A DNA stretch of 64,000 nucleotides. Origin: Bacteriovoracaceae bacterium (GTDB lineage: Bacteria > Bdellovibrionota > Bacteriovoracia > Bacteriovoracales > Bacteriovoracaceae). Position numbers and translations under genes: made by a program. The stretch covers positions 1 to 64,000 of the forward strand of contig JAGLPP010000071.1 in assembly GCA_023137315.1 (NCBI GenBank), read 5' to 3'. The notes below the pieces were generated by a model. That model did no database searches. It saw only the letters and a program-made list of their open reading frames with translations, and was not told where the DNA came from. Shown one piece after another: positions 25,918-45,057 of the stretch; position 1 is the first letter of the stretch, and each line of letters starts with the position of its first letter.

Positions 25918-26982
25918 TTACAGTGTTTTGTTTTGTGCCACAAAAAGTCCAAGGTCAGAGGCAAAGCTTTTCAAATTGGAATGAATTGAATTGAAGTGGA
26001 CGTCTGTTTTTTTAGCGGTGTTACTTTCTTTTGTGAATTTCAGTTTGTTAAAGACGGCGATTTTTGATTCTATCTCGTTTCTGATGGAGTGGTAATCTTC
26101 TGGAAATGAATCGGTAATTCGATATTTGTGATATACAGATTCAGATACAATGGTTACTTTGTCCGGAGTATCCTGATTGGTTTTTGAATTTCCGTCATAC
26201 CTAAACGGGAGAGCACCTCTTGATAACAGCCCATGAACAATAAAACTTCCAGAATAGAGAACTTTTGATTCGTTCAAATCAAGAAAGACTGTTCGTTTGA
26301 AGTTTCGATCTTCAATATCTTTCCAGTTGATATATTCTATTTTTGTTCCCAGTATCTTCACTAACTTCGCTACATATTTAAAAAAGTATCCATCATGGTC
26401 TTTGTAATTTGGGTTATAGCAAGAAAGACATTTTATGGACATATGTTCAAGCTTTTTCCCGTATTTTGCTTTTATTTCATTTAAAATCTCTTCCAGATAC
26501 CGTTCAGATGCCTGAAATTTGTCCATTACACCTGTTAATATTATTTCATCAGGATTATTACAAACTTCATTTGAATGGAAATTTAAATGGGTTGAATAGA
26601 TGGCGACTTGTTTTTTCCATTCTTTTGGAACGAAATAAGCCAAATCCCTGTTAATAATGAAAGTTGTTTTAATTGTTCCGGGGACAGGATGTAATCGAAA
26701 AAAATTCATCAGGGAGAAAGATCCATCCCTTATAAGTACAAAGGAAACAGAGTTTAGGAGGTCGACATCTTTCATGGACAAAAGAAATACGGTACGCAGT
26801 TTTGAATGGTAATGGTTTGTGTGTGGATTTATTCGATGCAATTCATCTTGAACTGATGATTTCATCATGTCCCATGGTTGCATGTTCCAAGGCCGTATGT
26901 TGCTACTCAATGATTTTTTTTCCTCTTTTTTTTCGAAAAGATATTTTTTAATTAGTTGGTGAATATTCTCTTTACTTCTCAT
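25918..26982 (-). CDS. Hypothetical protein coupled to a glycosyltransferase
   Basis: A 354-aa soluble protein of unrecognised family, first gene of the accessory island. It contains CLSCYNPN near the middle, a mixed alpha/beta composition and no signal peptide. The frame is open to 27141, but ATG 26982 is chosen: AGGAG lies 7 bases upstream and the gene then overlaps the preceding GT4 gene by only 11 bases, implying translational coupling. Its partner genes (GT4, carbamoyltransferase) suggest a role in the same glycan pathway. Confidence 0.65.
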   Translation of the reverse strand: MRSKENIHQLIKKYLFEKKEEKKSLSSNIRPWNMQPWDMMKSSVQDELHRINPHTNHYHSKLRTVFLLSMKDVDLLNSVSFVLIRDGSFSLMNFFRLHPVPGTIKTTFIINRDLAYFVPKEWKKQVAIYSTHLNFHSNEVCNNPDEIILTGVMDKFQASERYLEEILNEIKAKYGKKLEHMSIKCLSCYNPNYKDHDGYFFKYVAKLVKILGTKIEYINWKDIEDRNFKRTVFLDLNESKVLYSGSFIVHGLLSRGALPFRYDGNSKTNQDTPDKVTIVSESVYHKYRITDSFPEDYHSIRNEIESKIAVFNKLKFTKESNTAKKTDVHFNSIHSNLKSFASDLGLFVAQNKTL

Positions 26983-28291
26983 CTTGCCACTCCTGGTTGA
27001 AGTATGAAGAATAAATCTCTTTAAAAAGATGTGAAAATCCATTTTCTCCCTTGAAAGGTGCTTTTTTATTTGAAATATAAGCCGCATGAAGTTTTGCCAG
27101 AAGAGTGTTGAATGAATCAAAGTGTGGAGGAGTTTTTTCATGAAACTCTCTTAGCTTTATTGCAACTTTTTCAATTGAGAGTGAATTTGCAGCATGTTTC
27201 GCGTCTTGTTTTCTTTTTTCCTGATTGTACGAATTTTTTAATGTTGTAATCATCGCTTTTATGGCGAAACCGAAAATCGGAAGGATCATCTTATTTTGTA
27301 TATCTACAGGAATCAGTTTGCATGCGTTTTTATTAATTGTTTCAAAGGACGCATAACCGGCCCAATCCGAAAGAAGCAGTGGACATCCTGAACACATTGC
27401 CTCGGCTGGTGACATTCCAAAATCCTCGTCATTATGGGTGCTGAGACTTATAAAGCAGTCTGCGGCATTATAGATTTCTCTTAATTTCTCATTTTCCAGA
27501 TTCCCTGCATATTGAATATACTTGCTGTTTTTGTGGAGGATTTTATTTTCAAGTACGTTCGAAAAAGTGGTAAAAAAACTTCCGGGAAATCCACTTTCAC
27601 CGATATATGGTATTCCTATATCATCAACACCGCCGGCAATTATTAAATGTGATTTTCTGGAAATATTGTATTCCTGAAGAAAACCGAAGATCGAGATAAG
27701 CTGTAATACATTTTTTTGAATTGAAAGTCTTCCAGTATAGAGGAACATGAAATCATCCTTGCCGATCCCCAGCTCTTTTCTGATTTCCTCCCTATTGGTG
27801 GAATCAAAATAGAAGACATCATTATTTACAGGAAATGGCAGGTAGTGGATGCTTTTTTTGTTATCGTCGTCGGAATTGATAAAACTGCTAATGAGTTTAA
27901 CCTGTCTTTCGGAGGCACAAAAAAATGTTGTTTGCGCCTTTTGCAGTATGTGTTCAACTTCAAGCCAATCGGAGGGTTTAAGGGTAAAATCTCCATAAAC
28001 ATGAAAATAGAACTCTGGTCGGTTTTCGTCGTACAAAAGATCAAGAGATTTCAATAAAAATCCTGGATGCGGATGATGGTCAATAAAAACAATTTTTTCA
28101 GGGTGATAATCAAAAATTTCATTGGCAACTTGTCCAGTTTCATACTGATTCATACTGGTATCAGTGTGAAAAATCCGGATTTTGGAGTCTGGGAAAGCAA
28201 TTCTATACATCTGTTCCAGATTGGCAGTTATACTCTGACAACTAATCCATGATGATTTTTTTTTCTTGCGAATAATTGCAATAGAGTTCAT
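26972..28291 (-). CDS. GT4-family glycosyltransferase
   Basis: A 439-aa GT-B glycosyltransferase. The C-terminal nucleotide-sugar domain has FLYTGRLSIQKNVLQLI, YIQYAGNLENEKLREIYNAADCFISLS and the E-x7-E segment EDFGMSPAEAMCSGCPLLLSDWAGYAS, as in GT4 retaining enzymes. The N-terminal acceptor domain is less conserved (IVFIDHHPHPGFLL). It transfers sugars from a nucleotide donor in the cytoplasm. The ATG at 28291 has GGAG about 10 bases upstream. It lies 59 bases from the carbamoyltransferase on the same strand; its end overlaps the next gene. Confidence 0.85.
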   Translation of the reverse strand: MNSIAIIRKKKKSSWISCQSITANLEQMYRIAFPDSKIRIFHTDTSMNQYETGQVANEIFDYHPEKIVFIDHHPHPGFLLKSLDLLYDENRPEFYFHVYGDFTLKPSDWLEVEHILQKAQTTFFCASERQVKLISSFINSDDDNKKSIHYLPFPVNNDVFYFDSTNREEIRKELGIGKDDFMFLYTGRLSIQKNVLQLISIFGFLQEYNISRKSHLIIAGGVDDIGIPYIGESGFPGSFFTTFSNVLENKILHKNSKYIQYAGNLENEKLREIYNAADCFISLSTHNDEDFGMSPAEAMCSGCPLLLSDWAGYASFETINKNACKLIPVDIQNKMILPIFGFAIKAMITTLKNSYNQEKRKQDAKHAANSLSIEKVAIKLREFHEKTPPHFDSFNTLLAKLHAAYISNKKAPFKGENGFSHLFKEIYSSYFNQEWQDEK

Positions 28292-31317: not shown

Positions 31318-34137
31318 ATGAATATTCTGGTGTTAACAACGAGGGAAAATTTTGTTTGGACAAGTATGCAGGAAATTATTCCAGGTATTGAGTCGTTGTG
31401 GTTGAATTTTGGAAAGCGAAATCATCAGGTGGAATGTCTTAATGTGGATGAACTTGATATTAAGCGTGATATGCCTAAATTTATACAAGCCGATATCATG
31501 GTTCTTACCGCCTTTAATTTGAATATTGTCCGCGCAGCTCAACTGGCAAGAAAAGTTTTGAATCTCGACAGTGTTTTTTATGTTTATTTGCATAATATGG
31601 CCACTATCTCGTGCTGGCCGTTTCATGAATGGGGAGCGTCGGATCTGTTTAACGAAAGGGATGTTTTTATTTCAACCTGTTCAAGGGATGCTGAGCTGAT
31701 AAAAAGAACTTACAAGGAACTTAATGTTCTTGTTCTGCCGTTTTATGTATCTGAGGAGGAAATAACAAGTGGAGAATGTAATAGTGATAGTCCATTTGTA
31801 TATATAGGTAGAATTTCAGAGCAAAAAAATCTACATACTTTGCTTGTTGCCTATTCGCTGTTTTTGCATAATTCAGAAAGCAGACCCAAGCTGATTATAT
31901 TTGGTAAAGAGGACAACCTGGGAAGTCCCAATATGGGAACGAAGGGGGACGGTTATCTTTCAAAGCTAAAGACGTTTGTATCCGAATTGAAAATAGTGGA
32001 TCAAGTGGAATTTCGTGGATTTGTTTCAAGGGACAAAATTTACAAGGAATTGGATGAACAGGATTATATATTTGTTTCAGCGAGTCTTCACTCCGACGAA
32101 AATTTTGGAATGGCGGCCCTTCGCTCATTATTGTCAGGCAAGAGATGTTTATTAAGTGATTGGGGTGGGCATTCCGATTATGTCCGGTATTTTGCTGAGA
32201 ATCTTCATCTTGTTCCAGTCCGAAAATCGGAAACCGGCCCTGTTCTTCATGTTGAGGAATTGATTCATGGAATGAATGTTATTACAGGGAAAAAGGCCAG
32301 CAAGGTAAAAACTCCTGAATATTACACACCGGATAAAATTTTAAACATTATTGAAGAGGATTTTAAGATCAGACGAAAGAACGCAAAGCTGGAGTTGACG
32401 GATCTGGCCTTGGAACTGTGGAAAAAGAGAAATTCCTTCAATGTTGGTTCCGATTGTGTTGACGAAAGTCCGTATCACAGGGGGACACGGATTTTTGATA
32501 ATTATAATGATAAAAACAGTCATATCTTTTTTCAGGCCTATGGAATGAAATCTGAATTTTTGTTTACTCCACGTGAGCGGGAGACTTATTTTTTGGTTCC
32601 ATGGGCAATGATTGAACAGGGAAATATTGTCATTTCAGATCCGCATAAGGGTAATTATTCTTTTAAAATTGGTCAGGGAAATTATTTGCTTAAAAGTTTT
32701 GGCGAAAAAAAGTGTTATGTCAGTTTGGATTTTATATCAAAGTTGGTTTCGCTCGGTGTTGCTTTAAAATGGGGGTTCGATATTGATATATCCAGGTTTG
32801 CAGGAGATCGTTGTCAGACAAGCATTGATATTTTGAAGGTGAAAGTTACAAATTTTTTTGAAGAGAATAAATTAAATCGTCCTTATTTTGCTGACGACCT
32901 TATGGAATTTGGCGGTAATAATGTTACAGAGGATGTGGTTTTGTTCGGTGGATATTTTCCAAGGTTTTTGGAGTCTGGAAACTGGCCGTTTGAAAACATA
33001 AGATTTTGGGTGATATGCCAAAGCATTAAAGAGGTTCTGACAGAGATCTTTAAAATACCGTCAAAGAGTGTATCCGTTATTCCAAGGGAAAAGCTCTTTT
33101 CTGTTAAATCGACAAAATTTCCAGATACATTGGACGGTCTTACGTTTGTTCATGCAGGCAGGATATCGGCGGTAAAAAATATTGAGTTGTTAATCTGGAC
33201 TGTTTATCAACTTCAAAAATCATACAATAAAAATGTGAAGCTTCAATTAATAGGTGCATTTGATGATAGTACACACGATTACTGGGGAGTTCCCGACAAT
33301 CATGATTATGAAAAACATGTTAAACATCTTATTGATGAATTGGACTGGAATGAAAAACCAATCTTGTGCAGGATGGTCGGCCATGATCAGTGGATAAAAT
33401 TGCTGGACAAGGATTCAGTTTTTGTAAGCTTGTCTTCATATCTTTCGGAGGATTTTGCGGTAAGTGTGGCACAGGCCATGGAGGCGGGATTTCCATGTAT
33501 ATTATCGGATTGGGGAGGGCATCGTGACACTGAGTCCGAACAGGTTTTAAAAATCCCCGCAAATTTAATAGTGCCCATCTTGAAACAGGTGTCGTTATAC
33601 AAGTTATCTGGATTGAAAATTGCAAAATGGATATTGGAAAACAGTCCTTGTCCTGAAAAAAAATTAAAGCAGAAAATGAGATTTCCGGAATCTTTAAGTA
33701 GATCCTCGTTGGACGGGATTCGTAGAACATTCGTGAAAAAATGGGGTGCAACATGTTTGCATGCGGCAAGGGGAAAGGGATGGATGTTCGCCGAAACCGA
33801 AAGTGGAAAACGGTTTTATGGTAAGCTGATTAGTGTTTTGGGAAATTTTAACGACGGGAAATATACAGTTCTGATTATAAAAGAGGGTATAAAGCATTTT
33901 ATGGATATTCCAGCTTCGGTGGAAAAATTTTTTGAAGATGAGAATTGCCCTTCCAATTACTTTATTCTAACAGTGACGGAGCTTGTCTCTAAAATTGGAA
34001 TAATAAAACTTCAAAATACATCGCAACTTGTTTTTACTTTCCCCAGGGAAAGAAATGAAAAGATTTATGAGTTTGCAGAAAATATACTTGGAAAAGGAAA
34101 TGTCAGTCAGCAACAACGATATATTAACGAGTCTTGA
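31318..34137 (+). CDS. Bifunctional protein with two GT4 glycosyltransferase modules
   Basis: A 939-aa protein built of two GT-B units. The first (about residues 1-380) shows FVYIGRISEQKNLHTLL, LIIFGKEDNLGSPN and SDENFGMAALRSLLSGKRCLLSDWGG. The second (about 540-800) shows VHAGRISAVKNIELLIWTVY, QLIGAFDD and EDFAVSVAQAMEAGFPCILSDWGG. The linker is about 160 residues. Each module keeps the acidic E-x7-E-like region, so the enzyme may add two sugars in succession. ATG 31318 is preferred (TAGGA 6 bases upstream) over 31312. The end overlaps the next radical SAM gene by 83 bases. Confidence 0.82.
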   Translation: MNILVLTTRENFVWTSMQEIIPGIESLWLNFGKRNHQVECLNVDELDIKRDMPKFIQADIMVLTAFNLNIVRAAQLARKVLNLDSVFYVYLHNMATISCWPFHEWGASDLFNERDVFISTCSRDAELIKRTYKELNVLVLPFYVSEEEITSGECNSDSPFVYIGRISEQKNLHTLLVAYSLFLHNSESRPKLIIFGKEDNLGSPNMGTKGDGYLSKLKTFVSELKIVDQVEFRGFVSRDKIYKELDEQDYIFVSASLHSDENFGMAALRSLLSGKRCLLSDWGGHSDYVRYFAENLHLVPVRKSETGPVLHVEELIHGMNVITGKKASKVKTPEYYTPDKILNIIEEDFKIRRKNAKLELTDLALELWKKRNSFNVGSDCVDESPYHRGTRIFDNYNDKNSHIFFQAYGMKSEFLFTPRERETYFLVPWAMIEQGNIVISDPHKGNYSFKIGQGNYLLKSFGEKKCYVSLDFISKLVSLGVALKWGFDIDISRFAGDRCQTSIDILKVKVTNFFEENKLNRPYFADDLMEFGGNNVTEDVVLFGGYFPRFLESGNWPFENIRFWVICQSIKEVLTEIFKIPSKSVSVIPREKLFSVKSTKFPDTLDGLTFVHAGRISAVKNIELLIWTVYQLQKSYNKNVKLQLIGAFDDSTHDYWGVPDNHDYEKHVKHLIDELDWNEKPILCRMVGHDQWIKLLDKDSVFVSLSSYLSEDFAVSVAQAMEAGFPCILSDWGGHRDTESEQVLKIPANLIVPILKQVSLYKLSGLKIAKWILENSPCPEKKLKQKMRFPESLSRSSLDGIRRTFVKKWGATCLHAARGKGWMFAETESGKRFYGKLISVLGNFNDGKYTVLIIKEGIKHFMDIPASVEKFFEDENCPSNYFILTVTELVSKIGIIKLQNTSQLVFTFPRERNEKIYEFAENILGKGNVSQQQRYINES

Positions 34138-34870
34138 AAGGGGAATCTTTTCGGAGATTGAATTTGAGATTAATCATAATTGCAACAGGGCCTGTGGTTA
34201 TTGTCCAAACCTTAAATACGAGCGTATGGAAAAAGGGGAAATGGCCCCGGAATTATTTGAAAAAATTATGATTCAACTCAGGGAGATTGGTTTTAAAGGC
34301 AGGGTTTCCTACCATTTTTATAATGAGCCGTTATTATGCAATAATTTGGATAAATTTATAAGGATGACCGGGGAATATCTTCCCGACTCAGTCAGCTATC
34401 TTTACAGTAATGGCACCCTGTTGACGAAAAAACGTTTTGTTCAACTTACACAAGCCGGTCTGGATAAATTCCATATTACAAAACATGAAAATGTTGGAGA
34501 AAATTACGTATTTGAAAAAGTGTACAATGGACTTCCGCAGGAACTGAAAAAGTTGGTGTTTTATGAGGATTTCAAGGATGTTGAATACAGTAACAGGGGA
34601 GGGCTTTTGCCAGATATAAAAAATGAATGGCCGGAGAACTTGCCTTGTTTTATACCTTTGCGCCTTGTGACGGTGACTCTTAAAGGCAATGTTCTTCCCT
34701 GCTATGAGGATTTTTTCCAGGTTTTAAGTATGGGAAATGTAAACGACGAGCATATTTTGGATATTTGGAATTCAAATAAATACAGGGAATTTCGGGAAAA
34801 TTTAAGACAAAAAGGTAACCGTAACAAGTATGATATATGTCGAAATTGCAATAATTTCAAAATAACGTAA
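34055..34870 (+). CDS. Radical SAM/SPASM-domain protein
   Basis: A 271-aa radical SAM enzyme with cluster motif CNRACGYC (EINHNCNRACGYCPN) and a short C-terminal SPASM-like part (LPCYEDFFQVLSMGNV... IWNSNKYREFRENL ... CRNCNNF). SPASM proteins use auxiliary Fe-S clusters, usually to modify peptides or sugars. ATG 34055 has AGGGA 5 bases upstream; it lies inside the end of the glycosyltransferase gene. A later ATG at 34100 has a poor ribosome site. It overlaps the next gene by one base and is clearly coupled to it. Confidence 0.75.
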   Translation: MKRFMSLQKIYLEKEMSVSNNDILTSLERGIFSEIEFEINHNCNRACGYCPNLKYERMEKGEMAPELFEKIMIQLREIGFKGRVSYHFYNEPLLCNNLDKFIRMTGEYLPDSVSYLYSNGTLLTKKRFVQLTQAGLDKFHITKHENVGENYVFEKVYNGLPQELKKLVFYEDFKDVEYSNRGGLLPDIKNEWPENLPCFIPLRLVTVTLKGNVLPCYEDFFQVLSMGNVNDEHILDIWNSNKYREFRENLRQKGNRNKYDICRNCNNFKIT

Positions 34871-36003
34871 TGATGAAAAAAAGTAATAAATATAAAATAG
34901 TTCAGGAGCTGGAAGCTGAACATATAAAAGCACGATATCGTGATCTGGGATTGCCTGAAAATTTTTGTCCTGTTCCGTTTACCACCATAATCGCCGAGCC
35001 TGATGGAAAAATTGGAAGCTGTCGCTTGAAAGGTTCCGGGTTTTCCATAGGAGATATTCGAGAGAAATCCATGGAGGAAATCTGGAATGATGAATTTATC
35101 AGAAAGTGGCGAAGGGAGTTTTTGACCGGTAAGGTTGAGATATGTGCCAGGGAAATCAAGCATAGAGGGTGCAATCTGTGCAGTGAGAACAACAAGTTGC
35201 TTGATTTCACGGATTTTAGCGAATTTCAGAAAAAACCCATCGTAAAATTTACGGCGAATTTTAACGGATTTTGCAATCTTCGTTGTCAGACTTGTCATAT
35301 TTGGCAAATGCCAAACGGACTCTACGATAAAATAAATTTTTGGGAAAAGGCGGAAAAGGATATTTTTCCGTACATAAGAGAGATTGATTTTCTCTCTGGT
35401 GAACCATTTTTACAGTCGGATACATTCAGACTTATAGATATGATTGTTCCAATGAATCCGGATTGCAGATGGTTATTCACCACTAATGCGCATTACAAGT
35501 TAGAAAATAAGCTGGAAGATTATTTGGACAGGTTGGTAATCAAGGGTATTATGATCAGTATTGATAGTTTTGAACCGGGAAATTTTTCAAAAATCCGCAA
35601 AAACGGTAATTTGGATCAGGTCTTGGAAACCACCTCTGCGATCAATAATTATCGAAATTCTAGAGAGAAAAGAGGTCTGGAGAGGTTTCCCATCCAGCTT
35701 GGATTTTTATTTCAGAAGGATAATTGGCATGAGCTTGGATCGGCACTTGATTATTGTGAAAAAATGAATTTCAGACCCCATATTCAATATTGTTATGAGC
35801 CCGTAGAGTATTCGGTTCTTGATTTTGATATTGAAAAACAAAAAGAGATACTTTATTGGTATCTGAATAATTTGAGTTGGGAGCATATTGAAATGGGGAT
35901 CAGGGCCATTACTCCAACCTTGTATAAGCTGGAAGAGATAGATCGCGCTGATTTTCTTATGAGATTGAGGAAGAAAAAACTCGCAGAGGCGAAAGATGAT
36001 TGA
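34870..36003 (+). CDS. Radical SAM protein with N-terminal twitch/SPASM-like domain
   Basis: A 377-aa protein in which the cysteine-rich auxiliary domain comes first. It begins with FCPVPFTTIIAEPDGKIGSC, then SIGDIREKSMEEIWNDEF and C-x2-C in GCNLCSEN (about residues 33-110). The radical SAM core follows with CNLRCQTCH (FNGFCNLRCQTCHIWQ) and EIDFLSGEPFL. This permuted order matches the 'N-terminal twitch' radical SAM type, also seen in the protein at 38988. It overlaps neighbours on both sides (1 and 8 bases). The substrate is unknown; a peptide or lipid-linked sugar is possible. Confidence 0.78.
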   Translation: MMKKSNKYKIVQELEAEHIKARYRDLGLPENFCPVPFTTIIAEPDGKIGSCRLKGSGFSIGDIREKSMEEIWNDEFIRKWRREFLTGKVEICAREIKHRGCNLCSENNKLLDFTDFSEFQKKPIVKFTANFNGFCNLRCQTCHIWQMPNGLYDKINFWEKAEKDIFPYIREIDFLSGEPFLQSDTFRLIDMIVPMNPDCRWLFTTNAHYKLENKLEDYLDRLVIKGIMISIDSFEPGNFSKIRKNGNLDQVLETTSAINNYRNSREKRGLERFPIQLGFLFQKDNWHELGSALDYCEKMNFRPHIQYCYEPVEYSVLDFDIEKQKEILYWYLNNLSWEHIEMGIRAITPTLYKLEEIDRADFLMRLRKKKLAEAKDD

Positions 36004-36373
36004 TTTTTCAAACGTTGATGAAATTACCTTTAATCAATTAAAGGAAGTGCTTGCGAAAAGGGGACGTTTGCCAATCAGGGTTGTGACCAGTTCAATGGAA
36101 CCTGTTATTATGGCAGGAGATACGCTGGAAGTTGTCAGCAAAACGGATGAGCTTAAAAAGTTTGATATAATTGTTTTTTGGAGAGACAGCAAACTTGTAG
36201 TACATTATATATGGGGAAAAAATTTTTTGCAGGGTGTGAGCTATACCACCCGTTCCCTGGAGATGCCCAACCACAACGAATTACCTGTGCCTGAGTGTAA
36301 TATTCTGGGATATGCGGATGGGGTGAATATTGGTTTTTGGACTCGTGTAAGGTTACAATTGTTTTATGGATAA
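35996..36373 (+). CDS. S24/S26-family-like peptidase fold protein
   Basis: A 125-aa protein with the signal-peptidase/LexA beta-fold signature: S33 in VVTSSMEPVIMAGDTLEV (S26: G.SM.P.l..GD), then FDIIVFWRDSKLVVHYIW and a C-terminal GYADGVN. The usual catalytic Lys segment is not obvious and there is no membrane anchor, so activity is uncertain. Similar small S24/S26 proteins occur in modified-peptide and export clusters. It overlaps the upstream radical SAM gene by 8 bases and the ABC permease gene by 8 bases, tying it to export. Confidence 0.65.
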   Translation: MIDFSNVDEITFNQLKEVLAKRGRLPIRVVTSSMEPVIMAGDTLEVVSKTDELKKFDIIVFWRDSKLVVHYIWGKNFLQGVSYTTRSLEMPNHNELPVPECNILGYADGVNIGFWTRVRLQLFYG

Positions 36374-37142
36374 TAATTTCAAGTATAAATTACTAATCAG
36401 ACAAATTTATGAATTGGCCAAGGCCAATATGAGATCACGATACAGAAAAACGATAGCGGGATTTTTGTGGGTCGTTTTAAACCCGATCATAATGTACTCT
36501 GTTCAATCATTCGTATTTCGAAAATTCTTAAAATTGGAGGTTCCCAACTACTCTCTTTTTCTATTGTGCGGTCTTTTACCATGGATATTTATAGTTATGA
36601 CTGCTGATATGGTGACGCCTATTTTGGATTTTTCAGGAGAACTTCTAAAAAGTTTCAAGATGAGTCCTGCCGTCCTGGTTTATGCCCAGGTATTGGATAA
36701 TTTTATAAATTTTATCTTTGCCTTTTTTCTGATTCTTATTCCAACATGGATCTTTTCAGATCAGACATTTTCCGGGGTGATTTTTCTTCCTGTGGCACTT
36801 GCGTTGCTTGTAGCAGGAGTTTCCAGTGCCTGCTGGTTATTGTCGGTAATGCAGGTATTTTTCAAGGATATACGATTTATAGTATCATTTTTAACCAGTA
36901 TTTTATTTTTTCTGACGCCTGTTTTTTACCCAGTGGAATTTGTCCCCGAAAAGTACAGGATATTTGTTGATTTTAATCCCATATATGCCATGATTGAACC
37001 ATTTCGATACTGTATTTATAATTATAATTTGGAGCTTCTATGTAAAAGTCTTCTTAGAAGCTTTGTTGTCTGTTGCATGATTTTTACGCTTGCTGTTGGT
37101 TTTTGGAAGAGGAAGAAAAATGAATTCTATCTCAGTCTCTGA
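36366..37142 (+). CDS. ABC-2 polysaccharide/glycolipid exporter permease (Wzm-like)
   Basis: A 258-aa inner-membrane protein with about six hydrophobic segments. The N-terminus has YELAKANMRSRYRKTIAGFLWVVLNPI, the classic Wzm/TagG/KpsM pattern ('l...dlk.ryr.s.lG..W.ll.Pl'), and a later ILFFLTPVFYPVEFVPEKYR loop. It would form the channel that exports a lipid-linked glycan with the ATPase encoded next. The overlap of 23 bases with the ATPase gene implies coupled translation. Confidence 0.9.
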   Translation: MDNNFKYKLLIRQIYELAKANMRSRYRKTIAGFLWVVLNPIIMYSVQSFVFRKFLKLEVPNYSLFLLCGLLPWIFIVMTADMVTPILDFSGELLKSFKMSPAVLVYAQVLDNFINFIFAFFLILIPTWIFSDQTFSGVIFLPVALALLVAGVSSACWLLSVMQVFFKDIRFIVSFLTSILFFLTPVFYPVEFVPEKYRIFVDFNPIYAMIEPFRYCIYNYNLELLCKSLLRSFVVCCMIFTLAVGFWKRKKNEFYLSL

Positions 37143-37893
37143 TACTGTTTTAAAGATTGAAAAATTAAATATTGTTTTCAATTCGTATGTTTACAGACGT
37201 GAAACAATCAGAGATCGCTTTGTTCGTGCCGTTGGCAGTCCGCTGAGTTCGTTAAGGAGTAATAAAAACCAGTTGCATGTTCTAAAGGATTTTAATCTTG
37301 AGGTCAAAAAAGGCGAGAGACTTGGAATACTCGGCCATAACGGTTCCGGGAAAACCACACTTTGCAGGTGTATTGCCGGAATGTTGATACCATCAACCGG
37401 ACGAATATCCGTAAACGGAACCCGTCGATCAATATTTAATACAACAATTGGGATTATTCCCGAACTTACTGGAAGGGAGAATGCTTATTTACTGTCAGTT
37501 TTGATGTTTCCTGAACTTGAAAATGATGAAAGGAACGATTTACTGGAGGAGGCATTGGAATTCAGTGAGCTTGGAGATTTTCTTGATACCCCGTATATGC
37601 ATTATAGTAAGGGAATGCAGGCAAGGCTTTGTTTGTCGGTAATTTCATCGAATGAATGTGATCTTCTTATCCTTGACGAGGTGTTCGACGGTGCCGATAT
37701 GTTTTTTCAGGAAAAAATTGCCAAAAGAGTTCTTAATTTGATTAAAAATTCAGGTGCTGTTGTTTTTGTTTCCCACAATCTTGAACAAATCAGAACGGCA
37801 TGCAATCAAGTTATGGTTATAGATGGTGGTAATGCATGGTTCAAGGGGGATGTCGAAGAGGGAATCAAGCTTTATACGTCAAGAGGTCATTAA
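37120..37893 (+). CDS. ABC exporter ATPase (Wzt-like)
   Basis: A 257-aa ATP-binding subunit: Walker A GHNGSGKTTL (about residues 72-81), signature YSKGMQARLCLSV, Walker B LLILDEVFDGAD and switch His in VSHNLEQI. The long N-terminal preamble before the Walker A (IEKLNIVFNSYVYRRETIRDRF) is typical of Wzt/TagH/KpsT proteins. There is no C-terminal carbohydrate-binding domain, so chain-length or cap recognition would lie elsewhere. ATG 37120 has GAGGA upstream. Its last 29 bases overlap the convergent nucleotidyltransferase-like gene. Confidence 0.9.
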   Translation: MNSISVSDTVLKIEKLNIVFNSYVYRRETIRDRFVRAVGSPLSSLRSNKNQLHVLKDFNLEVKKGERLGILGHNGSGKTTLCRCIAGMLIPSTGRISVNGTRRSIFNTTIGIIPELTGRENAYLLSVLMFPELENDERNDLLEEALEFSELGDFLDTPYMHYSKGMQARLCLSVISSNECDLLILDEVFDGADMFFQEKIAKRVLNLIKNSGAVVFVSHNLEQIRTACNQVMVIDGGNAWFKGDVEEGIKLYTSRGH

Positions 37894-38854
37894 ACGAAAA
37901 ATTTTCGCGATTTTTTATCAATACGTTAATACCTGACATAAGAGAATCTTTTTCGGGAAGATCGACCATCTCAAGCAGATCTCGAATTAAATTAAGATGA
38001 ATTAAAAGATTTGTAGGTCTTGGGTCAAGTTTACTTTGAGTATAAAGACCCCAGATTTCCCAGCGAATTTGTTCCTGTAACAATTCGGATTCATGAGTGG
38101 AAAGTCTGCCAATTGATTTCAGATCGTGCTTTAAGTTTTCATGACAGTAGGAAATCCCAATCCAGCGGAATGGATATATCAGGATAAAATTTCTTTTATT
38201 TTCGATTTTTCCGTATGGGACTTCAAGATTTTTATGAATTCTTGAATCCACAGAAAAAAGATTACGGATAAAATTTCCGGCATCAATTTCAATGCTGTTC
38301 AACTCTGTGATCAATACTTCAATAAGATTATCAAATGATAATGGGTGTGGAAATTTGATGTTTAACAGCGAAAGATGGTGGTTCCATTTTTTTATGCGAT
38401 AATCGGGGATTGTGCGAAGATTATTTTGGTCGGCTTCCAGATTCTTACATAAAAAAACGATTTTTTGATATATGTCTTTCTGTCGTAGCTTTGTGGAATG
38501 CAAATTTAACAGGTGTGGGTCCCGCAAAAACTCATAACGGTTGATGAATGGTATAAAATCTGTGGCATCGGTGTAAGAATACAAGTTGATTTCACCAAGG
38601 AAAGGAATGATTTTTTTTAATTTCGAGTAGCGTTTTACGACTTTGAATGGATTGAAGTCACCGTGAAAATAAAAAGTTAAATCGAGATCACTTAGAGCAC
38701 AGACGATATTTTTTAATCTAAGACTGTTTCGGCTCCAGATATTTACCGGAAATCTCCAATAGAAAATTTTAACAGCTATCAGGCCAATATGGTATGGGAT
38801 GGTTTGTATCCAATAAGGCAGTAAAGAGAGAAATCTATAAGGTTTTACTTTCAT
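37865..38854 (-). CDS. Degenerate nucleotidyltransferase-like protein
   Basis: A 329-aa protein with SLRLKNIVCALSDLDLTFYF near residues 43-62, which resembles the Pol-beta-type nucleotidyltransferase core (GS...G....SDiDL). The Gly-Ser start of the motif is replaced by NSLRL, but the S-D-L-D-L acidic pair is kept. The rest is helical and not recognised. It may be an active or degenerate nucleotidyltransferase. It is divergent from the cassette gene at 38988 with 133 bases between, and it overlaps the exporter ATPase gene tail to tail by 29 bases. Confidence 0.5.
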   Translation of the reverse strand: MKVKPYRFLSLLPYWIQTIPYHIGLIAVKIFYWRFPVNIWSRNSLRLKNIVCALSDLDLTFYFHGDFNPFKVVKRYSKLKKIIPFLGEINLYSYTDATDFIPFINRYEFLRDPHLLNLHSTKLRQKDIYQKIVFLCKNLEADQNNLRTIPDYRIKKWNHHLSLLNIKFPHPLSFDNLIEVLITELNSIEIDAGNFIRNLFSVDSRIHKNLEVPYGKIENKRNFILIYPFRWIGISYCHENLKHDLKSIGRLSTHESELLQEQIRWEIWGLYTQSKLDPRPTNLLIHLNLIRDLLEMVDLPEKDSLMSGINVLIKNRENFSFNDLLTYKA

Positions 38855-38987
38855 TAGGTTGTACTGTAGCGCATCCAGATGTTGTTTACCAGCAACAAAC
38901 GGATGGATATTTGCGAAGAAATTATTTTTCTCACGTTTATCCTTGTGCTATTCTTTTAAAACTACTTTTACCACAATTGGAAATCGC

Positions 38988-40379
38988 TTGGATTTGAATA
39001 GAAAAGAAAAAATAGAGAGAATTGAAAGAATTAACCATGTATCGTCATGCTTTTGTCTGGCTAAATGGTTACAGGTAACCGTTGATCTGGTTCATGGGAC
39101 AAATCATAGCTGTCATCATCCGGTAAGACAGAATATCCCGTTGGAAGGGTTGGAGGAAAATCCATCCAGTTTGCATAATACCAAATATAAAAAAATATTG
39201 CGACGACAGATGTTAAACGGACGACGGCCTGCAGAATGTAAATACTGTTGGCAGATCGAGGATGTAGTTGGTTACGAATGGTCTGATCGTATGATTAAAT
39301 CCCTGGACGAATGGGCCTTTCCATATTTGGATGAAATTATCAAGCTTCCGTGGGATGCAGATGTAACACCCACCTATGTTGAGGTCATGTTTGATAAAAT
39401 TTGTAACATGTCCTGTGGCTATTGTATTTCAGGAGTAAGCTCCAGCATTGAAAATGAGATGGAAAAATACGGGCCTTTCAAATTTGTGAAACCTTACAGA
39501 GCGGAAGAGGGGTGTGATTTTCCACTTGGCCTGTCACAAGATGAGGGGGAAAGACCTTACGTGCGTGCCTTTTGGAAATGGCTTCCAGATATTGCAAAAA
39601 AATTGCATGTTTTGCGGATTACCGGCGGTGAACCACTTCTTTCAAAAAATACCTTCAAGATTTTGGATTACTTTGATGAGAATCCTTCGGAGAATTTAAT
39701 ACTGGCCCTCAATACCAATCTCTGTGTAGATGATAAAATAATTGATAGGTTTATTGACAGGCTGAAGCCTATTCTTCAGCAGGGAAAAATTAAACAATTT
39801 GAGATTTATACCAGCGTGGATACATTTGGTGGACAGGCTGAATATATTCGCAAGGGTTTGAACTACCGTAAATTTGTGAATAATATTTGCAAATTCAAAG
39901 AGTCTTTTTCAGATGTATCTATCGTTATAAATGTTACCTACGGAATTTATTCAATTCCTTCGTTTAAGAAATTTCTTGAGGAAATTTATGAATTAAAGCA
40001 AAAATACGGCAGATTGGTGGTGGATATTTCGTATTTGAGCAGTCCGGAATATTTGCGTGCGAATATGGTAACAGAGGATTTTTATCCGACGGTCAGGGAA
40101 TGTCTGGACTATATGGAGAGTAAATTCTCACCGTCCGGCGATGATGGATTTTCCCGCTATGAAATTGATAAATTTACTCGTGTATATCTCTGGATTATCG
40201 CCAAGGCCCCTCCAGAAGAGCATAATTTTAACAGGGCCGGTTTTTACGCATTCGTTTCACAATTTGATAAGAGATATTATATGGAAGAAGGCCGTTTTAT
40301 AGAGGTTTTTCCAGAGTACCGAAAATTTATGGTTTACTGTAGGAAGGCTTTCTGGTTTATAAATAAATTAACAGCTTGA
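38988..40379 (+). CDS. N-terminal-twitch radical SAM peptide-modifying enzyme (predicted)
   Basis: A 463-aa protein with an N-terminal cysteine-rich domain (CFCLAKWLQVTVDLVHG, NHSCHHP, then C-x2-C in ECKYCWQIEDVVG), followed by the radical SAM core with CNMSCGYC (about residues 137-145) and LRITGGEPLLSKNTF. The layout equals that of the protein at 34870 and fits 'N-terminal twitch' radical SAM enzymes. A PqqD-like gene follows 13 bases later, and a small peptide gene after it. It is therefore predicted to modify that peptide. The start is uncertain: the frame is open from TTG 38859, with no ATG; TTG 38988 or 38994 are equally possible and leave room for a promoter. Confidence 0.8.
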   Translation: MDLNRKEKIERIERINHVSSCFCLAKWLQVTVDLVHGTNHSCHHPVRQNIPLEGLEENPSSLHNTKYKKILRRQMLNGRRPAECKYCWQIEDVVGYEWSDRMIKSLDEWAFPYLDEIIKLPWDADVTPTYVEVMFDKICNMSCGYCISGVSSSIENEMEKYGPFKFVKPYRAEEGCDFPLGLSQDEGERPYVRAFWKWLPDIAKKLHVLRITGGEPLLSKNTFKILDYFDENPSENLILALNTNLCVDDKIIDRFIDRLKPILQQGKIKQFEIYTSVDTFGGQAEYIRKGLNYRKFVNNICKFKESFSDVSIVINVTYGIYSIPSFKKFLEEIYELKQKYGRLVVDISYLSSPEYLRANMVTEDFYPTVRECLDYMESKFSPSGDDGFSRYEIDKFTRVYLWIIAKAPPEEHNFNRAGFYAFVSQFDKRYYMEEGRFIEVFPEYRKFMVYCRKAFWFINKLTA

Positions 40380-40392
40380 ATGGAGGATGGAT

Positions 40393-40686
40393 ATGACCGA
40401 CAAAAAATACGATAAGAGTACTATCTTTGAGAAACGGAATGATGTCGTTTCCAGGGCGAACAATGATGAGAATGTAACTGTTTTGATGAAAATGGATGAT
40501 TCATCCTCGTTTTATAAAATTGACGGGGTTGCACAGCATGTCTGGGGTTTGATAAATGAGCATAAATCAGTAGATGAAATGTTGCGAATTTTGGAGAGTA
40601 AATATGATGCCAGTGCTGAGAAAATCAGTGAGGATGTTCATAAATTTTTGCACAAGCTCCTTGATTTGAATATTATTGAATTTTGA
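40393..40686 (+). CDS. PqqD-like peptide-binding chaperone (RRE protein)
   Basis: A 97-aa winged-helix protein of the PqqD type: SSFYKIDGVAQHVWGLINE (PqqD: 'Y.Ln.tga.iw.l'), HKSVDEMLRILESKYDA and VHKFLHKLLDLNIIEF. PqqD-type domains are RiPP recognition elements that hold the precursor peptide for a radical SAM enzyme. ATG 40393 has GGAGG 6 bases upstream; the ATG at 40387 touches that site. It shares the start sequence MTDKK with the S74 protein that follows. It is the only PqqD homologue in the window, and lies between the radical SAM gene and the peptide gene. Confidence 0.85.
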   Translation: MTDKKYDKSTIFEKRNDVVSRANNDENVTVLMKMDDSSSFYKIDGVAQHVWGLINEHKSVDEMLRILESKYDASAEKISEDVHKFLHKLLDLNIIEF

Positions 40687-40712
40687 ACAAGTGGGTACGG
40701 CCGTGTTATAAC
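40683..40712 (+). promoter_or_regulatory. Predicted promoter of the S74 peptide gene
   Basis: TTGAAC (40683-40688), an 18-base spacer and TATAAC (40707-40712) with an extended -10 (TGT before it). The -35 overlaps the stop codon of the PqqD-like gene. Transcription would start near 40719, about 30 bases before the ATG at 40751, so the peptide gene can be transcribed independently and more strongly than its modifying enzymes. An imperfect inverted repeat (GTTATA...TATAAC) overlaps it and could be an operator. Confidence 0.55.
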
Positions 40713-40750
40713 TGGTCAATTATATAACATCTGAAATCATGAGGTTCATT

Positions 40751-41248
40751 ATGACCGATAAAAAACAGGCATATTATTTTGGTGGTATTGAGAAATGTGT
40801 GGATGATAAATCGAACTGTGATAAATCATTGAAGAAATATGATTTCGGTGGAATTGAGGAATATAATCTTCAGGAAATTGAAAAAGAGATTTTAAACGAC
40901 AGTATATATCTGGATGTATTTGCAGGATCGGATAAGCGGTTTAAAACGGATATAAGTCCGGTTTCGGACGGGTTGAAAAGTATTCTCAACTTGAACGCAT
41001 ATAAGTTTTCTTACAAGACTGAGGATTTTCCTGAAAACAATTTTGATTCCAGTGAACAAATTGGAGTTATGGCGCAGGATGTGGAGAAGGTTTTTCCGCA
41101 AGCGGTTAAAACTGATGATAATGGATATCGTTATGTAAATTATGCCATGCTTACACCGGGACTGATTGAAGCGGTAAAAGACCTTAATTCCATAGTGGTT
41201 CAGCAGGGAGAGCTGATTAAAAAACTTCAAGAACAACTCAAAAAGTAG
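40751..41248 (+). CDS. Candidate precursor peptide fused to a self-cleaving S74 chaperone domain
   Basis: A 165-aa protein. Residues 1-59 carry two copies of Y-x-F-G-G-I-E (Y8-E14 and Y30-E36) separated by a Lys/Asp segment with C16 and C23. Residues 60-150 form a Peptidase_S74 intramolecular chaperone domain: S60-D-K-R-F-K65 is the Ser/Lys dyad with the 5-residue spacing of phage endosialidases, followed by IGVMAQDVEKVFPQAV and YRYVNYAMLTPGLIEAVKDL. The last 20 residues are a short coiled coil. Autocleavage before S60 would free a 59-aa peptide. ATG 40751 has GAGG 6 bases upstream. Its end overlaps the GT2 gene by 11 bases, tail to tail. Confidence 0.75.
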   Translation: MTDKKQAYYFGGIEKCVDDKSNCDKSLKKYDFGGIEEYNLQEIEKEILNDSIYLDVFAGSDKRFKTDISPVSDGLKSILNLNAYKFSYKTEDFPENNFDSSEQIGVMAQDVEKVFPQAVKTDDNGYRYVNYAMLTPGLIEAVKDLNSIVVQQGELIKKLQEQLKK

Positions 41249-41948
41249 ATCCTGATATTCGTAATTGAAAAAATAATTTTAAGACGGTAAAAGTAACCCC
41301 TGAAATATTTTTTAGTGTGAAGGCCCTGGAGTTTCTGGAAGATTCAAATACATCAATAACGTCAATCTGGGTATAACTGTGATTTTTGAATAGTAACTTG
41401 AGAAGCATTTCGGCCTCAAATGCGTAGCTGTCGGCCTCAATTTGAATGGTTTGGTAAAGTGATTTTTTTAATAAAATTGAACCATTGTAATATTTTAGAT
41501 CCTTGGAAAAAAGAATATTAATGATTTTTGTGTAGAGCTTTGAAAGGATTTGTCTAATTAGTGGTCGATCGAAGGTATTGGCCTGACAGGAAATGACAAT
41601 GTCAGCTTTCCCTTTTTCAGCATAGATTTTTTTAAGCTGGTCACTTGTGGTGTCATTTTTTCCGTTAACACAAATAAGATAATTTCCTGTTGCTCTTTGA
41701 AAACCCTGTTTTGTGCAATGGCCTTTTCCTTTTGATTTTTTATTGTGTACGGGAATAATACGATTGTCACCGGCCGATAATGATTGAGCAATTTGATATG
41801 TTTTGTCCGTACTTCCATCATTAACGATAATAATTTCATATTCGTCCCAGCAATGGAGCGAATCTTTTAGTGTTTTGACCGTGTTGCTTAACTGGTCCTC
41901 TTCATTTAAAGCGGGTACAATTATTGAGATGGAGTTGTCATTGTCCAT
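41238..41948 (-). CDS. GT2-family glycosyltransferase with altered DxD motif
   Basis: A 236-aa GT-A glycosyltransferase resembling dolichyl/undecaprenyl-phosphate sugar transferases: ISIIVPALNEEDQLSNTVKTL, YEIIIVNDGSTDKTYQIAQSL, then GKGHCTKQGFQRATGNYLI. Where the metal-binding DxD should follow (aDaDl), the sequence reads ICVNGKNDTTSD, so the usual acidic pair is missing. It may have reduced or altered activity, or use another residue. A polyprenyl-phosphate sugar product would supply the GT-C-like membrane proteins nearby. Start ATG 41948 is divergent from the DegT gene. Confidence 0.8.
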   Translation of the reverse strand: MDNDNSISIIVPALNEEDQLSNTVKTLKDSLHCWDEYEIIIVNDGSTDKTYQIAQSLSAGDNRIIPVHNKKSKGKGHCTKQGFQRATGNYLICVNGKNDTTSDQLKKIYAEKGKADIVISCQANTFDRPLIRQILSKLYTKIINILFSKDLKYYNGSILLKKSLYQTIQIEADSYAFEAEMLLKLLFKNHSYTQIDVIDVFESSRNSRAFTLKNISGVTFTVLKLFFQLRISGSTF

Positions 41949-42004
41949 TTGTGAAATATAACAAAGAGAAGGACCTTAGGAAAGATTTATATGAATCTCA
42001 AGTC

Positions 42005-43318
42005 ATGAAGAAACTGGTATTTAAAATTCCACGTGCCATTTATTATATGGATTTTTTTGAACCCCTGAAATCATTATTTAAATGGTTTTCAGGAAAGGGA
42101 AAATCCGGACCAAAAGTACAGGAATTTGAAGAGGCCTTCAAGCAGCTTTTTGGTCATGAGCATTTGACAATAATGCCGCATGCAAGAGTGAGTTTATATT
42201 TTTGTCTTAAATCATATGAATATGATCTTGGTGATGAAGTTCTGATGACTCCGGTCAATTTGCCTGACATGGTTAACATGATTCGAATTTGTGGTCTTCG
42301 CGAAAGATATGTAGATATTAACAGACATGATTATTCCATTGATCTTGAGGATGCAAAAAACAAACTATCCACAAGAACCAAATTTCTGTTTGTTACGCAT
42401 CTTAACGGAATTGTTCCCGATATGGATGCTATTTTAAAATTTGCAGGTGATCATAACTTGATTCTTATCCAGGATTGTACCCAGAGCATTGATTGTCGTT
42501 ATAATGGAAAAAGGCTGGAGACATACAGTGAACTTAGTTTTATGGCCTTATGTGATTTGAAGGTAATTCATACGCATATGGGAGGAATGATTGTTTCTCA
42601 AAATAGCGAGAGATTAAAAAGAATCAAAAAAATTGCCGACGCTGAGCTTTTGCCACTTAGTCCCAAATATCTTTTCAGATTTGTTGCTGAGGATATGATT
42701 GCAAATATTCTTCTCAATCGTGTACTTTTCTCAATCATTATTTTTCCAATCATGCGGTTTTTGACGATCATGTTGGGGGCAAATAATATCCAGGGATTGA
42801 CCAGGGGAGATGGACTTAAAATAGGGAATATTATTATTTTAAAGTCCATTTTTGGAGGAGGAGGAAATCTTTTAAGAGAGAGTGTTCCGGATTACATGCT
42901 TTACAGATTTTCAACCTTGCAGGCTGAAATAGGTTTGAAGAGATTAAGGAAATTCAAGGAAATTGATCAAAAGAGAATTGAAAATTCAAAAAAATTTCAT
43001 GAATTTTTGGATATTGGTGATAAATATACAGCAAAATACGAGGATGATAGAACTCATGTCTATTGGAAATTTCCAATTATTGTCAAGGATTATGAACGGC
43101 TTCATGATCATCTCTGTCGGTTTGGGATTGATTCCGCCCGTTCAAACCTTCCCTGTCTTTCCACTCTTGAACACTTCAAGGGAGGTGATCAGACACCAAA
43201 TGCTGAATTTATGGTTAACTCGTCCTTGTATATTCCACTCCATTATTATTTGAATGATAAGGAAATATCTTTTATTGCAGGGAAGGTGACTGAATTTTTT
43301 TCAGACGGTTCTTTATGA
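42005..43318 (+). CDS. DegT-like aminotransferase with hydrophobic insert
   Basis: A 437-aa PLP enzyme of the DegT/StrS fold: GPKVQEFEEAFKQLFG, TIMPHARVSLYFCLKSY, VLMTPVNLPDMVNMI, LIQDCTQSID, and PLP-lysine position K186 in MALCDLKVIHTHMGGMIV. Between residues about 215 and 260 lies a long hydrophobic stretch (FVAEDMIANILLNRVLFSII, then FPIMRFLTIMLG) absent from soluble family members and suggesting membrane attachment. ATG 42005 is chosen (frame open from 41924). It lies 4 bases short of the next gene, which overlaps it. The protein at 45050 is a close architectural relative. Confidence 0.75.
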   Translation: MKKLVFKIPRAIYYMDFFEPLKSLFKWFSGKGKSGPKVQEFEEAFKQLFGHEHLTIMPHARVSLYFCLKSYEYDLGDEVLMTPVNLPDMVNMIRICGLRERYVDINRHDYSIDLEDAKNKLSTRTKFLFVTHLNGIVPDMDAILKFAGDHNLILIQDCTQSIDCRYNGKRLETYSELSFMALCDLKVIHTHMGGMIVSQNSERLKRIKKIADAELLPLSPKYLFRFVAEDMIANILLNRVLFSIIIFPIMRFLTIMLGANNIQGLTRGDGLKIGNIIILKSIFGGGGNLLRESVPDYMLYRFSTLQAEIGLKRLRKFKEIDQKRIENSKKFHEFLDIGDKYTAKYEDDRTHVYWKFPIIVKDYERLHDHLCRFGIDSARSNLPCLSTLEHFKGGDQTPNAEFMVNSSLYIPLHYYLNDKEISFIAGKVTEFFSDGSL

Positions 43319-45057
43319 AAAGAGACTTGTTTTATTTTATTATAATATTTGTTGTTTTTAGCCTTGCTGTAATAGTGGCCACAGGTTTCGATCCCGAGGT
43401 TTTGAAGGTTGATAAGGGATGTTATGGAAATAATACGGCCTCTGTTCTTGAAGACGGGGATCTCAATACAATTAATCAGGCACTTCCAAGGGATAGGTGG
43501 CTGGTTACAAAAACCTATAATCATCCTGATTTTCACGATCATGGGATAGCTACACTCTGGATTCCGTTTTTTGCTTATTGGAAGCTCCTTGAGGTGTTTG
43601 ATGTGGAACCAGGGGTGTATAAGTCCGAAAAATATGATGTAAGTCAGATTGTTGCAAATATTTTTTATGGAATGATATGTCTGGTTCTTATTTACAGATT
43701 CATGTTTTCATTTTTTGATGATAAGAGAAAAATACTGCTGTCAATTGGCACAGTATGTTTTGGAACATCATTTTACTGGTATTTTCTTTTTCATCCGGCA
43801 AATTCCGATATTACAATTACCATTCTTCCCGTCATCCTGGTAGGTCTGTATTTATATTTGCAAAATAGTGATAACAAATGGAAGTGGGGATTGTTCGGGC
43901 TGATTTTTGGATGTATGTCTATAATCAAGGTCAGCATGGTGTTTTATCTGTTGATATTGTTACATAATGTCGTCCTCTATTGGAGATACAATCCCTGGAA
44001 CACAGTTAAAGTCCGCTATCTGCCATTCGTATCTGGTTTTATTATATCGATCATACCTTTTTTGATTAATGAAAGAATAAAGTACGGCTTTTTTAATTAT
44101 GGCCATCTAAGCCTGTTTAACGAAAGCTATTATCTTTTGAAGGAGGTCGTTCTCGGGCCATCGGGTTATTTTTATGTTTCACCAATTTATTTTATTTTTC
44201 TCTGTTCTTTAATCATTTATCTCATTCGTCTTTGCAGGAATAAAAACAGTTTGAATACAGGGTTACACTCATTTTTTGCATTTTTGGGGATAGTCCTTGT
44301 GGTGAAAACACTTATTGAATCATTCACATTTGGTGGTAACGGCGGTCTTGGCGCCAGGCACTTTATAGTGGACACTTTTGTCTGTGTACTTTTTATACAT
44401 TTTGTTACAAAGAAACTGAAGTTTTATAAATTGTGGATTTTATATATTCCGGCAATCCTTTGGACGTTAATGGTATCCGTATGGTATTTTCATCATCTTC
44501 CAAATTCACCGGTTACGTGGGGTCAGAATTATATCGTCGATATGGATTTTTTCCGTCCGACAATTCTTTTGATGCTTGAGAGATTTTCGATTATCGTAGA
44601 TAACCTTGGATCATTATTATTCGCAGCTTTCAAGTATTCTCCGCTAATAGCTATTTCATCCTTTCTTGTTATCAAACTCTATAAAATGCCACGTAAAAAA
44701 GATCTTGAATACAAGGTCTTTAAGATTTTCGGGTTGTACATCTTTGGATGTTATCTTTTGATCACATGCCTCAATGTGGTTTTTAATTCTGAAAATGTGG
44801 AGCTGATGAAGCAGGACAATTTTTTTTCAAAAACAGTAGTTGCCGGCGGTGTGAACCTTTATTCCTATGATGAAAATGTTTCGTCCATGTTGCGAATGAG
44901 CCGTTATTTGTCGAAACGAGGTGATTTGGAAGGGGCAGAAAAAATTGAAAAAACAAAACAGAAGTATATCAAACAAATAATGGGGGAAATCCTTGTTGAC
45001 CCGGTTGGATTTAAAAAGAATCTTGAGAAGGAAATTTTAAGGCGTCCATTTAATTGA
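43315..45057 (+). CDS. Polytopic membrane protein, GT-C glycosyltransferase-like
   Basis: A 580-aa inner-membrane protein with about 10-11 hydrophobic segments. The first periplasmic loop (about residues 25-90) ends in NHPDFHDHGIATLWIPFFAYW, resembling the acidic/His first loop of GT-C enzymes (ArnT/PMT-like), which use polyprenyl-phosphate sugars. It overlaps the DegT gene by 4 bases (ATGA). The C-terminal 90 residues are soluble and contain EGAEKIEKTKQKYIKQIMG. A role in attaching a sugar to a lipid or protein at the periplasmic face is inference. Confidence 0.6.
   Translation: MKRDLFYFIIIFVVFSLAVIVATGFDPEVLKVDKGCYGNNTASVLEDGDLNTINQALPRDRWLVTKTYNHPDFHDHGIATLWIPFFAYWKLLEVFDVEPGVYKSEKYDVSQIVANIFYGMICLVLIYRFMFSFFDDKRKILLSIGTVCFGTSFYWYFLFHPANSDITITILPVILVGLYLYLQNSDNKWKWGLFGLIFGCMSIIKVSMVFYLLILLHNVVLYWRYNPWNTVKVRYLPFVSGFIISIIPFLINERIKYGFFNYGHLSLFNESYYLLKEVVLGPSGYFYVSPIYFIFLCSLIIYLIRLCRNKNSLNTGLHSFFAFLGIVLVVKTLIESFTFGGNGGLGARHFIVDTFVCVLFIHFVTKKLKFYKLWILYIPAILWTLMVSVWYFHHLPNSPVTWGQNYIVDMDFFRPTILLMLERFSIIVDNLGSLLFAAFKYSPLIAISSFLVIKLYKMPRKKDLEYKVFKIFGLYIFGCYLLITCLNVVFNSENVELMKQDNFFSKTVVAGGVNLYSYDENVSSMLRMSRYLSKRGDLEGAEKIEKTKQKYIKQIMGEILVDPVGFKKNLEKEILRRPFN

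Follow-up and report, generated by a model that had tools for sequence, protein, structure and literature searches.

A conserved YxFGG[I/L] motif ahead of a Peptidase_S74 domain as a candidate docking leader for a PqqD-like protein in a Bacteriovoracaceae bacterium

Introduction

What does a short protein that ends in a Peptidase_S74 domain do with two copies of an aromatic motif, in a locus rich in radical S-adenosylmethionine (rSAM) genes and next to a gene for a PqqD-like protein? The protein is encoded in a 64,000-nt stretch (the window) of contig JAGLPP010000071.1 from a Bacteriovoracaceae bacterium (assembly GCA_023137315.1). An initial annotation, made from the sequence alone, proposed that the repeated YxFGGIE motif serves an rSAM enzyme that modifies repeated cores. 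Comparison with related genomes suggests instead that the motif belongs to a leader, one that would dock to the PqqD-like protein. The features on which the argument turns are as follows:

40751..41248, + strand: candidate precursor fused to S74, 165 aa (Peptidase_S74, PF13884, E 5.3e-17)
40772..40792, + strand: first motif copy, YYFGGIE, residues 8-14; among 31 homologues, in the window protein only
40838..40858, + strand: second motif copy, YDFGGIE, residues 30-36; the copy conserved in homologues
40838..40927, + strand: conserved segment YDFGGIEEYNLQEIEKEILNDSIYLDVFAG (profile A2), the proposed leader, part of which may be the modified region
40387..40686, + strand: PqqD-like protein, a RiPP recognition element (RRE; RiPP, ribosomally synthesized and post-translationally modified peptide), 99 aa (PF05402, E 1.4e-12), 64 bp upstream of the ATG at 40751

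The window protein and its two motif copies

Translation from the ATG at 40751 gives 59 residues before S60, MTDKKQAYYFGGIEKCVDDKSNCDKSLKKYDFGGIEEYNLQEIEKEILNDSIYLDVFAG, and bears out the initial description in full: both motif copies, C16 and C23 lie where they had been placed. The open reading frame (ORF; 40739-41248, + strand) spans 169 aa, with an in-frame ATG at 40739 that adds four residues. The first copy is probably translated, since the bases ahead of ATG 40751 (ATGAGGTTCATT) resemble those ahead of the start of homologue L037 (ATGAGGTTAT); for the same reason a start at the in-frame GTG at 40799, past the first copy, is less likely. The window has two matches to the YxFGGI pattern (TAYNNNTTYGGNGGNATH), where 100 shuffles gave 0.06 on average and none had two or more, so the pair is not due to chance. 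Across the 3.15-Mb genome assembly the pattern has three matches, two of which are the window copies. The DNA of the two copies is 80% alike over 30 bp at the motif and the likeness decays outside it, so that a recent tandem duplication is not an obvious origin. No signal peptide was evident by eye, and neither the window N-terminus nor nine short motif ORFs scanned from other loci (see below) matched any Pfam or NCBIfam model above its curated cut-off.

Conservation of the N-terminal segment

To ask which of the two copies is general, the segment was followed through related genomes. A BLAST search with the window protein in 143 related genomes, its own included, found S74 matches in 64; in 18 genomes beyond the window's own these were short homologues, 43-61% identical, whose alignment starts at residue ~12-29 and reaches almost to the C-terminus, and most other matches among those listed began at ~44-74, within longer ORFs. 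We then used a profile of 31 positions built from 19 sequences (A2), which starts at the residue following the motif Tyr and ends with the dyad's S-D. It matched 31 of 388 related genomes, once in each, at E 2.5e-21 to 5.1e-17 with nothing weaker up to 0.01, and all 31 sequences run on into S74. A genome-contig search with the single window protein as query gave three loci in which the S74 part alone matched, a viral-contig search with profile A1 gave two loci matching from residue 56 on, and tblastn with the 58 N-terminal residues of homologue L051 found no match in plasmids and phages.

From the second copy onward the family consensus reads YxFGGIxEFNLEEIExEVLNDSxYLDVFAG|SD. Within the motif, Tyr is kept in 30 of 31 homologues, Phe in 30 and the first Gly in all 31; position five is G in 25, E in three, Q in two and S in one, and position six is I in 25, L in four and V in two. 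The later Tyr, the DVFAG stretch and the Asp after the dyad Ser are invariant (31/31). The initial annotation had called for an alignment of homologous N-termini as the check on its motif, and the alignment supports conservation and not repetition: 30 of the 31 homologues have a single copy, and two copies are found in the window protein alone. Repeated cores are thus not supported. The near-invariance of the segment would speak against a core that diversifies as in toxins and in favour of a product or interface that stays constant.

Association with PqqD and radical SAM genes

The genes that accompany this segment were then surveyed. Three rSAM genes lie within 7 kb upstream of the S74 gene:

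38994..40379, + strand: N-terminal-twitch rSAM protein (start uncertain, ORF opens at 38859; CNMSCGYC)
34870..36003, + strand: rSAM protein with N-terminal SPASM; 11 of 31 loci have a homologue at most 500 bp away from their S74 gene
34028..34870, + strand: rSAM/SPASM protein (start uncertain)

By BLAST with the window PqqD-like protein as query (E<=1e-5, 388 genomes), PqqD was found in 44 genomes: 30 of the 31 that hold the S74 peptide (three as a fused domain) and 14 of the 357 others (Fisher 6e-33, a value inflated by shared ancestry and uncorrected for phylogeny). The N-twitch protein, which scores 294 bits against the N_Twi_rSAM model NF033640 (curated cut-off 170), has homologues at E<=1e-40 in 92 of the 388 genomes, comprising 30 of the 31 S74-peptide genomes and 62 of the 357 others (Fisher 7e-20, likewise inflated by shared ancestry). 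At the level of loci, tblastn detected PqqD in 20 of 31, the S74 gene has PqqD or one of three rSAM genes no more than 200 bp away in 25 of 31 (window included), and a homologue of at least one of the eight rSAM genes of the window is present in 30 of 31 with the window counted, the exception being L098 on a 3.2-kb contig.

In three genomes (G205/L078, G261/L083 and G292/L081) a PqqD-like domain is fused ahead of the S74 precursor; two of these domains (G205, G292) reach the PF05402 cut-off, and that of G261 was recognized by BLAST (E 1e-6) and by reading. Of the 31 members, only these three have S or Q at the fifth motif position, as would be expected if a docking motif loses importance when the RRE is tethered; the chance of this grouping is 1/4495 if the events are independent, but the grouping was made with the data already in view, and two of the three belong to one family. 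In G261 the motif has become ADLGQV, with Tyr and Phe lost. The initial annotation had named S74 homologues without the motif beside the same enzymes as the case that would tell against it, and G261 (L098) is such a case in part, with the caveats that its PqqD-like domain is fused to the peptide, that the contig is 3.2 kb long and that the rSAM match lies on another contig.

Related motifs in other short reading frames near PqqD

PF05402 is present in at least 110 of 328 genomes. From the matches listed, and from the genomes with PqqD by BLAST but no S74 peptide, we examined 75 PqqD neighbourhoods that lie outside the 31 S74 loci (L100-L114, L118, L119-L177; 796 kb). These are a subset of the listed PqqD genes taken mainly by rank, and some come from genomes that also hold the S74 peptide. 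ORFs of 40-120 aa carrying the motif were counted, with 20 shuffles as control. The pattern of the S74 family, Y.FG[GESQ][ILV], was found in five short ORFs (shuffled mean 0.5, maximum 2). The widened pattern [YF].FG[GESQR][ILV] gave 11 (mean 4.05, maximum 7), and the same pattern followed by K, E, T or Q gave nine ORFs in seven loci (mean 0.95, maximum 4); both wider patterns were defined when part of their matches were already known. Matches in L119, L102 (4842-) and L128 were judged spurious, one or two per pattern.

The credible motif ORFs are two tandem Cys-rich ORFs in L101, one each in L110 and L114, and the following:

L149: two tandem ORFs, YYFGGLKKKKIILPVYASPTGGT and YFFGRLKKKKIALPVYASPTVVGT
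L168: YYFGGIKPLS..., followed by a tail rich in Cys and Gly
L173: YFFGELKKIEL..., followed by a tail rich in Pro and Gly

A profile built from the credible ORFs, a paralogue in L110 that lacks the motif and five S74 members, gave further matches above or near noise in L108 (E 0.0027) and L153 (E 0.1). Two more were picked by eye from noise-level matches, in L165 (E 2.4) and L167 (E 13), and a looser text pattern added an ORF in L102 (13336-); the three chosen in these ways are suggestive only. The L108 ORF is a fourth fusion, in which PqqD is connected to an FGGIKK segment and a tail rich in Cys. Several of the motif ORFs have, by eye, a V[F/Y][A/S]-like end ahead of their variable part that resembles the YLDVFAG of the S74 family. 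As a separate observation, an ORF in L153 (5181-5873, + strand; G112) reads FQFGDLKKIA, then a Gly/Ser-rich spacer, then S74, and is possibly a second type of S74 precursor.

A candidate docking leader

A motif common to ORFs whose C-termini are unrelated would have the character of a leader signature, not of a modified core. We consider it probable, on the strength of these sequence comparisons, that the window protein is a RiPP-like precursor with an N-terminal RRE-docking leader marked by YxFGG[I/L] and an S74 module for self-release. The PqqD-like RRE, whose gene lies immediately upstream, would dock at the motif, and the RRE would present the peptide to one or more rSAM enzymes of the locus. 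The C-terminal S74 module, apparently borrowed from fibre proteins, would trimerise, cut before S60 and free a peptide ending in ...YLDVFAG, which the glycosyltransferases and ABC exporter of the locus may decorate and export. The doubled motif in the window may add a second RRE site. A broader proposal, which we put forward tentatively and hold to be possible rather than probable, is that of a RiPP class sharing the YxFGG[I/L] leader across much of the phylum with different cores, of which the S74 loci are a subtype: at the place of the core, a fibre-derived chaperone-protease would double as a trimer-gated leader peptidase acting between DVFAG and S, coupling maturation to trimerisation.

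Several observations weigh against a docking leader. Besides the late drawing of the wider patterns and the spurious matches given above, 68 of the 75 PqqD neighbourhoods have no ORF with the third pattern, and the motif ORFs lie 0.2 to 5.8 kb from the nearest PqqD, several of them 2-6 kb away. An rSAM-like ORF, identified by BLAST to window genes or by CxxxCxxC, was present in the fetched stretch at three of 11 non-S74 motif loci (L102, L165 and L168); the motif therefore appears to track PqqD more than rSAM, the latter being mainly a partner of the S74 type. One genome, G041, keeps the S74 peptide with no match to PqqD or to the N-twitch rSAM (E<=1e-40), weaker rSAM homologues lying nearby. 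Conservation is also not confined to the motif but extends all the way to the cut site, so that leader and product are not separable from sequence. A single-sequence AlphaFold2 model of the window protein was too poor to use (mean pLDDT 53.9) and thus lends the reading no help.

The initial annotation had taken each YxFGGIE as a core unit, with its Tyr, Phe, Gly or Glu as the possible target of an rSAM enzyme. Its premise that modifying enzymes would need the motif holds insofar as the motif is strongly constrained and the gene that carries it is linked to those for PqqD and rSAM proteins, and the analogy of PqqA makes Tyr a plausible target for rSAM modification. The repeated core itself found no support in the comparison: besides the single copy in nearly all homologues, a like motif opens short PqqD-proximal ORFs with unrelated C-termini, most of them with no rSAM in the fetched stretch, as is expected of a leader, and position five leaves G/E precisely where PqqD is fused in cis. 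We regard modified repeated cores as unlikely. If a docking leader is correct, the modification is to be sought downstream of the motif as well as on its Tyr or Phe, and the motif would serve as a searchable leader signature for an undescribed group of RRE-dependent peptides. It would also define a precursor architecture with a built-in release protease, in which a fibre S74 domain is used outside adhesion.

The S74 module and predicted self-cleavage

The remainder of the window protein consists of two parts:

40928..41110, + strand: Peptidase_S74 domain with dyad S60 (40928-40930) and K65 (40943-40945), predicted cleavage before S60
41111..41245, + strand: remaining S74 module and C-terminal helix, by analogy a trimerising coiled coil; aligns to MyRF 7dc3 and tail fibre 6f45

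MyRF is cleaved between P586 and S587, with a dyad S587/K592 equivalent to S911/K916 of endoNF (PMC8326128). S60 and K65 have the same spacing, five residues apart as is typical of Peptidase_S74. The profile also finds tail-fibre chains that bear S-D-x-R-x-K, together with a MyRF chain whose Ser position is occupied by Ala. Across the 31 homologues Lys is invariant and Ser is kept in 30; the remaining member carries Cys. In that member, at L094 (8400, - strand; G165), the sequence reads DVFAGCD and the Lys is kept. The Bdellovibrio S74 fibre Bd3182 is described as self-processed, with processing blocked in a Ser-to-Ala mutant (PMC10769870). By analogy with MyRF and Bd3182, the S74 domain probably cuts itself off between DVFAG and S, freeing a peptide that ends in YLDVFAG, and would act as a trimer.

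Since YLDVFAG lies right at the cut site with hardly any variation, and the same phylum has many S74 fibres, the segment could be a remnant of a fibre stem kept for the geometry of S74 cleavage, with the rSAM neighbours coincidental. No such segment was seen by eye in the fibre S74 proteins inspected, however, and the strong co-occurrence with PqqD and the PqqD fusions also count against it; we consider this origin highly improbable. The unfused members have no fibre or beta-helix ahead of S74, only about 35-60 residues.

Comparison with known systems

The docking leader proposed here resembles those of RRE-dependent RiPPs, in which RREs bind leaders as a beta-strand (PMC7470986 and PMC5067487). 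As in those systems, a discrete PqqD-like protein adjoins the precursor and an rSAM gene, a leader-like motif is followed by differing C-termini across loci (though within the S74 type the entire segment is conserved), and an ABC exporter is present. The window locus differs in the S74 chaperone-protease at the C-terminus of its precursor. It shares with Peptidase_S74 fibres and the MyRF ICA domain the S74 domain and the Ser/Lys dyad at +5, and differs from them in its PqqD and rSAM partners and in having no fibre or beta-helix ahead. The pyrroloquinoline quinone (PQQ) and mycofactocin pathways likewise pair a PqqD-type chaperone with an rSAM enzyme acting on a highly conserved precursor, and mycofactocin loci include a glycosyltransferase; the window differs in its precursor, in the S74 fusion and in the N-terminal position of the rSAM twitch domain. 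The part of the open-licence literature that was looked over held no evident description of a PqqD-docking leader fused to S74.

Lasso peptides offer a parallel in the motif itself. Their precursor leaders carry a conserved YxxPxL (PMC10368454), and the spacing of Y(i), G(i+3) and I/L(i+5) here is that of YxxPxL, a further point for a docking leader and against modified repeated cores. The best NCBIfam match of the window PqqD is likewise a lasso model (lasso_PqqD_Bac), at 40 bits under a cut-off of 80. YxxPxL itself is absent, however, with G in place of P in 31 of 31. The 95%-complete genome has no match to the B2-type leader peptidase (PF13471), and its sole match to asparagine synthase (PF00733), the type of cyclase that lasso clusters have, lies on contig C176, ~21 kb from a second PqqD gene, with none on the window's contig. 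We therefore did not retain a lasso cluster as the identity of the window locus. The second PqqD gene (L119, G000:C176:16000-28027; 6930-7414, - strand) overlaps an 81-aa ORF with KYVKPQIKVVPLKLQELMFVAAC, a peptide ORF containing YVKPQI. An rSAM gene (CNFKCIQC) lies nearby, as do what look by eye like an ABC transporter and an S26-like ORF; this is a separate peptide cluster, perhaps lasso-like.

Other genes of the locus

Eight rSAM genes lie within ~18.5 kb of the window (34028-52526; starts at 34028, 34870, 38859, 46392, 47411, 48461, 50041 and 51105), amid glycosyltransferase, DegT-aminotransferase and ABC genes. The other genes to be noted are:

35996..36373, + strand: S24/S26-peptidase-like protein, under the Pfam cut-off
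36366..37142, + strand: ABC-2 type permease
37090..37893, + strand: ABC transporter ATPase (start uncertain)
37865..38854, - strand: nucleotidyltransferase-like protein (weak), with an invariant S-D-x-D in 17 aligned sequences and a weak match to 1ylq (E 0.01)
26972..28291, - strand: GT4-type glycosyltransferase, with homologues near some non-S74 motif ORFs too
25918..27141, - strand: protein of an unlabelled family beside the GT4-type gene

Homologues of the ABC exporter genes, the GT4-type gene and the 25918-27141 protein are each present in 14-16 of the 31 S74-locus stretches. The locus also holds a carbamoyltransferase and DegT-type aminotransferases. This gene content, with the ABC-2 exporter and the GT4-type homologues near five of 11 non-S74 motif loci (L110, L149, L167, L168 and L173), would fit a protein that is not covalently modified and instead serves a surface-glycan locus as a trimeric scaffold or protein primer, its motif docking to PqqD or to a glycosyltransferase. 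Such a role leaves the near-obligate rSAM partner of the S74 type unexplained, and PqqD/RRE proteins are described as serving peptide modification (PMC7470986). We consider a scaffold rather doubtful, if somewhat less so than repeated cores.

Three further observations concern neighbouring genes. ORFs that resemble the S24/S26-peptidase-like protein by eye adjoin PqqD in L102, L105 and L111. The family of the 25918-27141 protein, for which profile searches gave no credible Pfam or PDB match, adjoins the GT4-type gene also in several related loci, including the non-S74 motif loci L149 and L173. At the edge of the cluster, the window encodes a papain-like (C1) peptidase with a Lectin_like domain (54809-56272, + strand), homologues of which lie near the S74 gene in L047 and L050.
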